Shown: positions 9,594 through 12,998 of the stretch, piece after piece | Position numbering within the stretch: the stretch's first letter is position 1 | Layout: each line of letters starts with the position of its first letter | NCBI RefSeq assembly: GCF_001027285.1 | Contig: NZ_CP011509.1 | Span: 1,620,501 to 1,684,500, forward strand | Length of the DNA stretch: 64,000 nucleotides | Source: Archangium gephyra | GTDB taxonomy: Bacteria > Myxococcota > Myxococcia > Myxococcales > Myxococcaceae | Reading direction: 5' to 3' | The notes under the pieces: model-generated | The model's input: only the letters and a program-made list of their open reading frames with translations | Told to the model about the DNA's origin: nothing | Database searches by the model: none | Program-made: the position numbers and the translations under genes

Positions 9594-12140
9594 TTACTCC
9601 TCGACGGTGAGGGCGACGCGGACCTTCTCGCGGCGCTCGAAGCGGTTGCCCGCCGCGTCCCGGGCCACGAGCACCAGCTCGTACTCCCCGGGCTCCGTGC
9701 CAGCGGGCACCCCCAGCTCGCGGGTGAAGCGCAGGCCGTCGCGCGTCTCCAGCAGGTGCTGCGCGTCACCGAAGAGCTCGCCGTAGACGCTCACCTCCTT
9801 GGTGGCCTCCACCGCGTCCACCTCCAGCTTCAGCGTCTGGCCGGGCGCCACCAGCCGCGAGGACAGCGTCACCTCGATGTCGTTGCCCTTGGAGTCCAGC
9901 CGGTAGCGCACCTCGCGCCGGCGCACCGTGCCGTCCGGCATCTCCACGGACACCAGCACGTCGTAGTAGCCGTCCTCCACCCAGAGCGGCACCAGGAAGC
10001 GGCCCCGCCAGTAACCCGACACCGTGTCGAAGGTGAGCGGCTTCACCAGCCCGAAGGGGAAGTAGGCCGTCACCCGGCGCGCGTTCCTCGGCGCCACCAC
10101 GGAGATGATGGGGTCTCCCGGCGGAATCTCCTCGCGGCTCAGCTCCCCGGTGACGGCCGCGTACGAGGTGCCCTCGGGCAGCTCCACCGGCACCAGCTCG
10201 CGCACCGTGGCACCGCCGGGCTGCGTGCGCGCCACCTCCTCCACCGCGACGAAGGAGGTGTACTTGCTCATCAGCCCGTACTGGAGCGCCGTGGCGGTGA
10301 TGGCCTGGACGACCTCGGGCTTCTCGCCGCGGTAGTTCTCCACCGTCAGCTCCTCAATTCGCTGGCGCGCCCAGAGGCTGCGCAGGGACGCGTGCTCCGG
10401 CGCGGACTCGGGGAGGGTGAGCGGCACCTCGAAGTGGCGCTCCTGCCCACGCACGCGGCCGGTGATGCGCAGCAGGCCCTGGCCCGTGCCGTGGAACTTG
10501 CCGATGAGGAACAGCGGCTGGCCGCTGAAGAGATCCGGCAGGGTCCGCGGGTAGACGTCCGACACCGGCAGCCCGTCCGTGCCCACGCGCACCGACGTCA
10601 GCACCGGGCCGCGGATGCGCGACTCGAACTCACGGGCCACCTCGTCCTCGGGACGCTTCAGGTTGACGAAGGTGGAGGCGCCGCGCCCCACCTCGCCCAT
10701 CTTCGCGACGAGGTAGCGGTTGACGTCATTGCCCACGCCCACGCTGAAGACACGCGTCTCCTCGCGCAGGTGGGACTGGAGGGTGCCGAGCACCTGGTGG
10801 TCGTTGCCGATGAAGCCGTCCGTCATGAACAGCACCATGCGCAGGCGGGCCGGGTCGTTGGCGGGCACCATGGCCTCCTGGGCCGCGATGCGCACGTCCG
10901 TGCCGCCACCGCCCCAGAAGTTGGCCACGTAGGGCAGGGCGCGCGCCACGTTCTCCGGCGAGGCCGGCACCGCGGCGGGAGCGAACTTCGTCACCTGCGT
11001 GTCGAAGTTGAGCACCTGGAAGGTGTCCTCGGGGTGCAGGTGGCGCAGCACCTCGGCGGTGATGGCCTTGGACTTCTCGATGGGCTGGCCGGACTGCGAG
11101 CACGAGGTGTCGAGCACCAGGTACAGCTCGCGCGGCACCACCTCCTCCTGCTTGGGCGCCAGCTGCGGGTTGAGCAGCACGAGGAAGTAGCCCTCGTCGG
11201 CGCCGGGCTCGCGGTGCACCAGCACGGCCGGGCGGATGAGCGCGTCGGCCACGCGGTACTCCAGGGTGAAGGTCTTGTTGGGGATGCGGTCCTCCGCGGC
11301 CAGCTCCACGCGGGCGCGGCTCGGGCCCTCGCGCGTCGCCGTCACGCGGTGCGACGTGGAGCGCAGCTCGTGGACGGGCACCCCCGCGTCCAGGCGCACG
11401 TGGAGGCGGATGTCGCGGCCACTGCGCACCTCGGGAGGCAGCACCGGCGGGGTGATGCGGCTCGCGTCGGGGACGGTGGTGGTGTCCGGCGCGGTGCCCT
11501 CGCCCTGGCGGAAGGCCAGGGACTCGCCGCCGATGTAGCGCGGGCCCACCGTCATGGGGAAGTTGAAGCTGTACTTGCCGTCCTCGTAGACGAGCCGCTC
11601 CACATAGTGGATGCGCACGCGGAGCTCCTCGCCCGGGAGGATGTTGGCCACCGACTGGGTGAAGAGGTTGGGGCGTTCCTGATCGAGCAGCGCGGCCGTC
11701 TTGCCCTCGGCGCGGGCGCGCTCGTAGGTGTCACGCGCCTGCTCGCGCGTCTGGATGACGCCGCGGATGACGCGCTGGCCGATGACGAGCTCCATGGCGT
11801 CCACGGCGGCCTTCTCCGGCAGCGGGAAGACGTAGAGGGCCTCGAGCGGCTCGGCGTAGGGATTCTCGAAGACCTGGGTGACGGTGACGCTGGCGAGGAA
11901 GCCACTCACCTCGGCGTCGACTTCCGTGTGCTTCAGGCTGAAGCGCTGGGGCTGGGACTCGGGGCAGCCCTGGGCGGAGGCGTGGCGGCGGAGCTTCGCC
12001 ACCAGCGTGCCCTGGGTGATGGCCCCGGAGCTCAGGGGCGAGGCGGAAGCGGGGCAGGGCGTCTCACCGGAGTCCTGCTCCTGGGCGGAGGCGGGGACGG
12101 ACAGAAGACAAACGAAGAGCGCGACGAGTGCGGCTCGCAT
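9594..12140 (-). CDS. VIT and von Willebrand factor A domain protein
   Basis: 848 residues with signal peptide MRAALVALFVCLLSVPASAQ, cleaved after ASA. A VIT domain (about 68-195; SLKHTEVDAEVSGFLASVTV) resembles inter-alpha-trypsin inhibitor heavy chains. A VWA domain follows (about 338-525) with an intact metal-ion site: D344-x-S-x-S348, the GGTD turn near 413-415, and MTDG with D441. The C-terminus (about 700-848) is Ig-like. No LPxTG or C-terminal sorting segment was seen. VIT-VWA proteins are usually exported adhesins or scaffold proteins. Its upstream region holds the four-palindrome array. Confidence 0.9.
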   Translation of the reverse strand: MRAALVALFVCLLSVPASAQEQDSGETPCPASASPLSSGAITQGTLVAKLRRHASAQGCPESQPQRFSLKHTEVDAEVSGFLASVTVTQVFENPYAEPLEALYVFPLPEKAAVDAMELVIGQRVIRGVIQTREQARDTYERARAEGKTAALLDQERPNLFTQSVANILPGEELRVRIHYVERLVYEDGKYSFNFPMTVGPRYIGGESLAFRQGEGTAPDTTTVPDASRITPPVLPPEVRSGRDIRLHVRLDAGVPVHELRSTSHRVTATREGPSRARVELAAEDRIPNKTFTLEYRVADALIRPAVLVHREPGADEGYFLVLLNPQLAPKQEEVVPRELYLVLDTSCSQSGQPIEKSKAITAEVLRHLHPEDTFQVLNFDTQVTKFAPAAVPASPENVARALPYVANFWGGGGTDVRIAAQEAMVPANDPARLRMVLFMTDGFIGNDHQVLGTLQSHLREETRVFSVGVGNDVNRYLVAKMGEVGRGASTFVNLKRPEDEVAREFESRIRGPVLTSVRVGTDGLPVSDVYPRTLPDLFSGQPLFLIGKFHGTGQGLLRITGRVRGQERHFEVPLTLPESAPEHASLRSLWARQRIEELTVENYRGEKPEVVQAITATALQYGLMSKYTSFVAVEEVARTQPGGATVRELVPVELPEGTSYAAVTGELSREEIPPGDPIISVVAPRNARRVTAYFPFGLVKPLTFDTVSGYWRGRFLVPLWVEDGYYDVLVSVEMPDGTVRRREVRYRLDSKGNDIEVTLSSRLVAPGQTLKLEVDAVEATKEVSVYGELFGDAQHLLETRDGLRFTRELGVPAGTEPGEYELVLVARDAAGNRFERREKVRVALTVEE

Positions 12141-12284
12141 GGGATTCCTCGGACGGGATGGGTACGTGCCGAGGTAATGCAGCCAGCGGGCCAGGGGCTG
12201 GGATGCGCCAAGTGCGCGGAAACACTGGGGGCGGGGCGCTGCGAGCTGTGGCTGCCTGGCCACACATGGCTGCTGCACCGTCTC
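12141..12284. promoter_or_regulatory. Upstream region of the VIT/VWA gene
   Basis: The non-coding sequence between the VIT/VWA start and the palindrome array, presumably holding the promoter for the minus-strand gene. No consensus -35/-10 pair or sigma-54 site could be picked out with confidence. Confidence 0.3.
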
Positions 12285-12448
12285 GTTTCACTTGTCACCG
12301 GTGACAAGTGGAATGGCCCCGCCCCGTTTCACTGGTCACCGGTGACCAGTGGAATGCACCTGCCGCGTTTCACTTGTCACCGGTGACAAGTGAAATGGCC
12401 CCGCCCCGTTTCACTCGTCACCGGTGACCAGTGGAATGCACCTGCGCC
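12285..12448. repeat. Array of four 22-bp palindromes at exact 41-bp spacing
   Basis: Four 41-bp units, each beginning GTTTCACT. They alternate A-B-A-B, so the array is also two copies of an 82-bp block. Palindromes lie at 12289-12310 and 12371-12392 (half-site CACTTGTCACC), 12330-12351 (half-site CACTGGTCACC) and 12412-12433 (CACTCGTCACC against GGTGACCAGTG). The first three are perfect; in the third, symmetry extends to 28 bp (12368-12395). Linkers alternate between ATGGCCCCGCCCC-like and ATGCACCTGC-like sequence. The array starts 145 bp upstream of the VIT/VWA start and ends 4 bp beyond the glutathione peroxidase stop. It may be an operator array, a cruciform-type terminator or a mobile palindromic repeat. 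Confidence 0.95.
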
Positions 12449-12452
12449 TGGA

Positions 12453-12998
12453 CTACTGGGCGAGGGCCTTGTCGAGGGCGCCCTTGAGCTCCTTGCTGTC
12501 CGGCGTCACGGAGCTGGGGAAGGCGGCGAGCACCTGGCCGTCCTTGCCCACCACGTACTTGTGGAAGTTCCACTTGGGCTCGCCGTGCTTGCGCGCGAGG
12601 AACTCGTAGATGGGAGACTGGCCCTCGCCCTTGGTCTTCACCTTCTCGAGCATGGGGAAGGTGACCTTGTAGCGGAGCTCGCAGAACTTGGCGATCTGCT
12701 CGGAGGTGCCGGGCTCCTGGCCGCCGAAGTCATTGGAGGGGATGCCGAGCACCACCACGCCCTTGGTCTTGTACTCGCCCCAGAGCTTCTCGAGGCCCGC
12801 GTACTGGGGGGTGTAGCCGCACTCGGACGCGGTGTTCACCACGAGCACCACCTTGCCCTTGTACTCGGAGAGGTTGGCGGGCTGGCCGTTGAGACGCTTG
12901 GACTGCAGGTCATGGAAGGACATGGCACGCTCGGCGGAGACGGCGGCGGTGCCCAGCAGGAGCACGGCCGCGGTGAGGGGAAGGAGTCGGTTGGACAT
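12453..12998 (-). CDS. Glutathione peroxidase, exported
   Basis: 181 residues including signal peptide MSNRLLPLTAAVLLLGTAAV; predicted periplasmic. It reduces hydroperoxides using glutathione or, more often in bacteria, thioredoxin. Catalytic residues are present: Cys60 in NTASECGYTPQY, Gln94 in DFGGQEPG, and Trp143-Asn144 in KWNFHKYVV. Cys is used rather than selenocysteine. Cys106 in AKFCELRY is at the place of the resolving cysteine of thioredoxin-dependent members. Its stop lies next to the palindrome array. Confidence 0.93.
   Translation of the reverse strand: MSNRLLPLTAAVLLLGTAAVSAERAMSFHDLQSKRLNGQPANLSEYKGKVVLVVNTASECGYTPQYAGLEKLWGEYKTKGVVVLGIPSNDFGGQEPGTSEQIAKFCELRYKVTFPMLEKVKTKGEGQSPIYEFLARKHGEPKWNFHKYVVGKDGQVLAAFPSSVTPDSKELKGALDKALAQ

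Follow-up and report, generated by a model that had tools for sequence, protein, structure and literature searches.

Tandem palindromes with a rigid 41-bp period in Archangium: a dispersed family with candidate upstream activating sites at some of its loci

The window, i.e., the whole stretch of 64,000 nucleotides from Archangium gephyra analysed here, carries four tandem palindromes between two genes of the minus strand. The stop codon of a glutathione peroxidase gene (gpx; 12453..12998, minus strand) is located 15 nt from the array, which lies ahead of a VIT/VWA-domain gene (9594..12140, minus strand, start codon at 12140), its candidate target. Here and below, some neighbour-gene names were read off translations. 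Against TIGR03788 (marine sortase target), the VIT/VWA protein reaches 494 bits, which is under the cut-off of 551. A putative sigma-54 -24/-12 promoter (CTGGCCCGCTGGCTGCA; 12178..12194, minus strand) faces the VIT/VWA gene at a distance of 90 bp from the array edge. Just upstream of this promoter, a three-species alignment reveals a conserved block (CCCAGTGTTTCCGCGCACTTGGCGCATCCC; 12200..12229, minus strand), which is possibly a further binding site.

All four units are given for the plus strand. Unit 1 (12285..12314) reads GTTTCACTTGTCACCGGTGACAAGTGGAAT with core GTCACCGGTGAC, unit 2 (12326..12355) reads GTTTCACTGGTCACCGGTGACCAGTGGAAT, unit 3 (12367..12396; GTTTCACTTGTCACCGGTGACAAGTGAAAT) is a 28-bp perfect palindrome, and unit 4 (12408..12437; GTTTCACTCGTCACCGGTGACCAGTGGAAT) shows one C/C mismatch. 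As the first-pass annotation had it, the centres (12299.5, 12340.5, 12381.5, 12422.5) are exactly 41 bp apart and three units, namely 1 to 3, comprise perfect 22-bp palindromes. The 82-bp super-repeat reported there is found as well, i.e., linkers 1 and 3 share the sequence GGCCCCGCCCC, and both linker 2 and the sequence past unit 4 start with GCACCTG. Such higher-order repeats of 82 bp, in which one core or flank base alternates, occur in several unrelated arrays (window 12285-12437, L030, L084). The palindrome unit is better taken as 30 bp (GTTTCACT-N14-AGTGGAAT), which together with a linker of about 11 bp makes up the period of 41. The 12-bp linkers are alike or identical both inside one array and across arrays; unique spacers between the repeats, as in a CRISPR, are not found in these arrays.

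The array had further been described as far beyond chance in unique sequence. The former holds, since the 12,489,432-bp (12.49 Mb) genome contains 24 copies of GTCACCGGTGAC, of which 18 belong to 41-bp arrays (five loci) and six are single, while a reversed-pattern control yields 0. The sequence is not unique, given that core and arrays recur elsewhere in the same genome. In total, the source genome (G000) holds 6 arrays with 22 units, i.e., the window array and five more. Using a core-independent search together with a covariance model, we gathered 34 array loci from five Archangium genomes and one relative, namely G000, G001 (A. lansinium), G004 (A. violaceum), G002, G005 and G008, a MAG of another genus. 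The complete Archangium genome G003 has no arrays, and in total none were found in 90 of the 96 family genomes scored. In a scan of 84,980 species, which possibly did not include the source genome, the strict unit pattern was recovered solely from Archangium violaceum Cb vi76 and A. lansinium MIWBW. A strict restriction to Archangium is thus nearly true, but fails given the units present in G008. The spacing of 41 bp holds almost everywhere in the family, and the tandem copy number varies from 1 to 8. Viral contigs contain no palindrome unit; a virus origin was discarded on these grounds and given that the orphan gene palA introduced below is not found in the phage and plasmid records searched. 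Rfam gave no match above the gathering score, and a known RNA family was dismissed, the sub-threshold miRNA matches being a hairpin artefact. We found no earlier description of 41-bp palindrome arrays in the literature searched, of which the coverage was partial. That is, the arrays apparently form an undescribed, low-copy family almost confined to Archangium.

Next, we consider how the units vary. The cores seen in arrays include GTCACCGGTGAC, GTCGTCGGCGAC, CTCACCGGTGAG, CTCATCGATGAG, CTACGTACGTAG and CTACCCGGGTAG, the inner arms CACT/AGTG are nearly invariant, and the centre of some units is one base longer. Changes on both sides are found at the unit pairs 10-21, 13-18, 12-19 and 6-25. Altogether, 28 cells show a both-side change compared to 9.4 in shuffled data, and none of 500 shuffles was as good. 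These paired changes preserve the palindrome, such that symmetry is more conserved than the sequence itself. A favoured core is found in each species, e.g., CTCACCGGTGAG in 12/12 strict-pattern units of G002 and GTCACCGGTGAC in 18/22 units of G000. Such species-wide switches of the core are compatible with a co-evolving trans factor. Within the G000/G001/G004 group, the lexA and phzF arrays are of mixed, often alternating cores, and the palA-linked and VIT-linked arrays are uniform. The Neisseria dRS3/NIME elements, like our units, are short inverted repeats in which the outer arms are fixed and the centre varies; they are not known to form a 41-bp array or to be homologous. The unit arm GTTTCAC/GTGAAAC matches the halves of parS, the ParB site. 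In contrast to the contiguous 16-bp TGTTTCACGTGAAACA, which was not found, the halves are 16 bp apart in every unit and one of them is usually degenerate.

The arrays are intergenic, many of them just past stop codons and others in promoter regions. Beside the window array (locus A), they are located between lexA and a convergent TPR-like gene (locus B), after an EamA-type gene (C), after a phzF-like gene (D), and between convergent genes (H and I). At lexA, phzF, EamA and gpx, stop codons are 5-42 nt from the array. The lexA locus carries the array in G000, G001 and G004; in G003 it is empty, and the lexA stop lies directly against the next gene end. A different palindrome, CCCTCTCCCTCTGGGAGAGGG, is present at locus B in G002 and G005. 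It is also found at locus D in G005, and G004 and G008 have both palindromes there. Likewise, palindrome CCCTCTCCCTCTGGGAGAGGGCTGGGGTGAGGG fills the same lexA/phzF gene-end slots (L096, L097, L104, L101) in species without the 41-bp array. A clean insertion with target duplication was looked for and not seen, the flanks being too different except for lexA in G003. Across genera, array positions are kept at phzF and palA.

A single orphan gene family of about 224 aa, here named palA, is the neighbour at nine array loci from six genomes and two genera (locus E with five array loci in Archangium species, locus G with two, locus J with one, and one in G008). The earlier remark that no obvious regulator lies alongside stands for the window locus, but elsewhere arrays adjoin palA. 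The array is always upstream of palA, and 169-189 bp separate its near edge from the start codon. In an alignment of the upstream regions, TGGC and TGC blocks are conserved in a -24/-12 layout (GG-N10-GC), i.e., a promoter 94-106 bp from the array edge with conserved boxes and a variable spacer. In 400 kb of G003, a region at the guessed syntenic position, no palA was found. The source genome itself has a second palA-type locus (L006), in which array and neighbour gene are kept and palA is missing.

All 68 array sides were scanned outward for GG-N10-GC promoters, using weights set by us and the published consensus TGGCACG-N4-TTGC(T/A) (PMC9765219). The top eleven of the 68 sides are the nine palA and the two VIT loci, all at 90-106 bp from the array. 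Per array side, scores of at least 22.8 have a background of about 9e-4 in this 17-bp slot, and those of 23.6 or above one of 1.7e-4; such a score is expected in about 1/1,000 sides, or in about 1/6,000 for the VIT score. Thus, 11/34 array loci have a -24/-12 promoter at 90-106 bp while 23/34 are without one at that distance; the latter include the lexA, phzF and EamA arrays as well as loci H and I. As the palA loci are homologous to each other and were identified via the arrays, the independent support amounts to one gene family plus VIT. The VIT promoter is kept in three species (window CTGGCCCGCTGGCTGCA, G004 CTGGCCCGCGGACTGCA, G001 CTGGCCCAGGGGCTGCA) with the same boxes and an altered spacer, and its distance to the array is 90 bp at both VIT loci (window and L028). 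Since a gene intervenes in G001 between array and VIT promoter (667 bp), the link between the two is not strict.

The first-pass annotation had offered a cooperative operator of the VIT/VWA gene, a cruciform and a mobile palindromic repeat as explanations. The first is partly upheld by the conserved sigma-54-type promoter between array and VIT start, whose layout is that of the nine palA loci. On the other hand, the genome-wide search found copies at unrelated gene 3' ends, which the annotation had named as refuting an operator and which support the mobile repeat, and the family as a whole is therefore not a VIT operator. An operator unique to VIT is ruled out by the five other arrays of the genome. 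Taken together, we regard the arrays as a new family of palindromes that probably serves as an enhancer at a minority of its loci, its role elsewhere being none or not assigned.

Enhancer-binding proteins are known to bind upstream activating sites (UAS) about 100-150 bp upstream and to loop to the sigma-54 polymerase (PMC7057263), with typically two to three dyad sites per promoter for NtrC-like proteins (PMC11841059). The palA and VIT arrays match such sites in position, repetition and helical phasing. The reading we favour, plausible if far from assured, is that part of this dispersed extragenic family provides the upstream activating sites of a dimeric activator of sigma-54 promoters, that of VIT/VWA among them. 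Both the binding protein and any activity of the arrays are inferred. Each palindrome would bind a protein dimer, and the spacing of 41 bp (about four helical turns) would place all sites on one face of the DNA, such that bound dimers could oligomerise. The oligomeric complex may then loop to the sigma-54 polymerase 100-130 bp away. For the VIT/VWA gene, the window array would act as the upstream activating region, and arrays at gene 3' ends would be dispersed or ancestral copies. What the arrays share with sigma-54 UAS of the NtrC, NmpR or Nla28 type is the repeated dyad sites that lie, in a myxobacterium, 100-150 bp ahead of a -24/-12 promoter. While UAS usually comprise 2-3 sites with N5 dyads, the arrays consist of 1-8 sites, 22-30 bp palindromes and species-specific cores, and many copies lie away from any -24/-12 promoter. 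Compared to the NtrC-type site GCGCA-N5-TGCGC (PMC11841059), it is the core that varies and the outer arms that are fixed. Further points against the enhancer reading are the several arrays between convergent genes and the mixed cores inside one array (L030, L031), which are not easily explained by a single sequence-reading protein. If it is true, the family provides a natural set of sites, with 1-8 copies at fixed distances, for the study of sigma-54 activation in myxobacteria and shows a regulator and its scattered sites shifting the core together between species.

The main rival is a neutral or selfish REP-like reading, because most arrays (lexA, phzF, EamA loci) lack such a promoter. That is, a non-autonomous or formerly mobile extragenic palindrome spread and was tandemly amplified, has no regulatory role at most sites, and inherited its nearness to promoters from an ancestral palA upstream region. 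We consider this a serious possibility, albeit a rather doubtful one. Copies at many unrelated intergenic sites, often right after stop codons, the clade-specific gain or loss at lexA (filled in G000/G001/G004, empty in G003), the other palindrome family in the same gene-end slots of sister species, and the tandem copy-number variation of 1-8 are all in its favour. The arrays also share with REP/BIME elements (GTAG and CGTC super-families, PMC3733652) that they are short imperfect extragenic palindromes of 20-40 bp, often gene-downstream, clustered and with paired changes. Yet, the source genome has only 6 array loci (22 units) compared to the usual high REP copy number (>100 per genome), the units follow each other strictly head-to-tail at 41 bp instead of alternating, and no GTAG/CGTC tag is constant at the unit ends. 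Furthermore, target-site duplications were not seen, positions are kept across genera at phzF and palA, and, unlike REP/BIME, part of the family is at fixed distance from -24/-12 promoters. There is no clear RAYT/Y1 partner, as the Y1 transposase (Y1_Tnp) hits are weak, do not track the arrays and are absent from the array-bearing G004. Even as a repeat only, the arrays would make up a new, well-defined family of palindromes, whose period is very rigid and whose co-variation is clear.

Two further readings concern the palindromes as such. RNA hairpins in 3' UTRs, which terminate transcription or protect the mRNA with the stem rather than the sequence under selection, would explain the compensatory pairs (28 both-side cells vs. 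9.4, 0/500), the extra base tolerated at the centre, the fold of the plus strand (z -11.6) and the stop codons 5-42 nt off at lexA, phzF, EamA and gpx. The rare 9-mer CGYACTTTT, with 3/6 arrays adjoined, fits as well. This is nonetheless quite improbable, as the palA and L023 arrays are upstream of genes and there is no U-tract directly after the hairpins; neither an intrinsic terminator nor a sigma-70 promoter was found at the array. The units show a G.U bias (74 vs. 10 A.C); at gpx, EamA and phzF, the G.U pairs fall on the strand opposite to that of the upstream gene. An RNA on a single strand was rejected, since this bias rests mostly on two near-invariant positions and the orientation to genes varies. 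Least credible, and indeed very unlikely, is a functionless, neutral minisatellite perfected by hairpin-templated (quasi-palindrome) repair. Perfect palindromes with drifting sequence, including the 30-bp perfect units in L083 and L078, as well as the alternating 82-bp repeats (window, L030, L084) would be expected from it, whereas the fixed distance to palA promoters and the retention after phzF in another genus are left unexplained.

Returning to an activator that binds the arrays, PalA is a candidate autoregulator. No sequence match to PalA was found in Pfam, NCBIfam, PHROG or PDB. Its full-length model is poor and that of the C-terminal domain fair (alpha-beta-beta-alpha, pLDDT 77). Foldseek (probability 0.44) and VIA (Z 3.9 over 54 residues) give the modelled domain a weak resemblance to the C-terminal domain of ParB (5noc), which is a lead and not an identification. 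That PalA binds the arrays, controls through them its own sigma-54 promoter as well as a small number of dispersed sites (VIT/VWA, lexA, phzF, others), and co-evolves with the species-specific core is in our view unlikely; if true, it would constitute a lineage-restricted regulator-array system.

Some smaller features accompany the arrays. Of the 8 copies of the 9-mer CGYACTTTT in the 12.49 Mb genome, 3 are about 17-21 nt from arrays, namely at the phzF, lexA and EamA loci (L020:3076, L005:3014, L013:3268; 3 of 6 arrays). At these, it always faces away from the array, toward one flanking gene; the five sites elsewhere in the genome have no hidden arrays. The end of a small lipoprotein-like gene (EEEALLRTDREFN..WKVVVD) adjoins an array in G001 as well as in G008 of the other genus (L027, L106). 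Finally, at a convergent locus that lacks palA (L080/L083), the array is followed by a 30-bp block (GTCCCGTGTCGTGGACGG..CCTCCGG) like the flank of the palA arrays, which suggests that array and flank travelled together.
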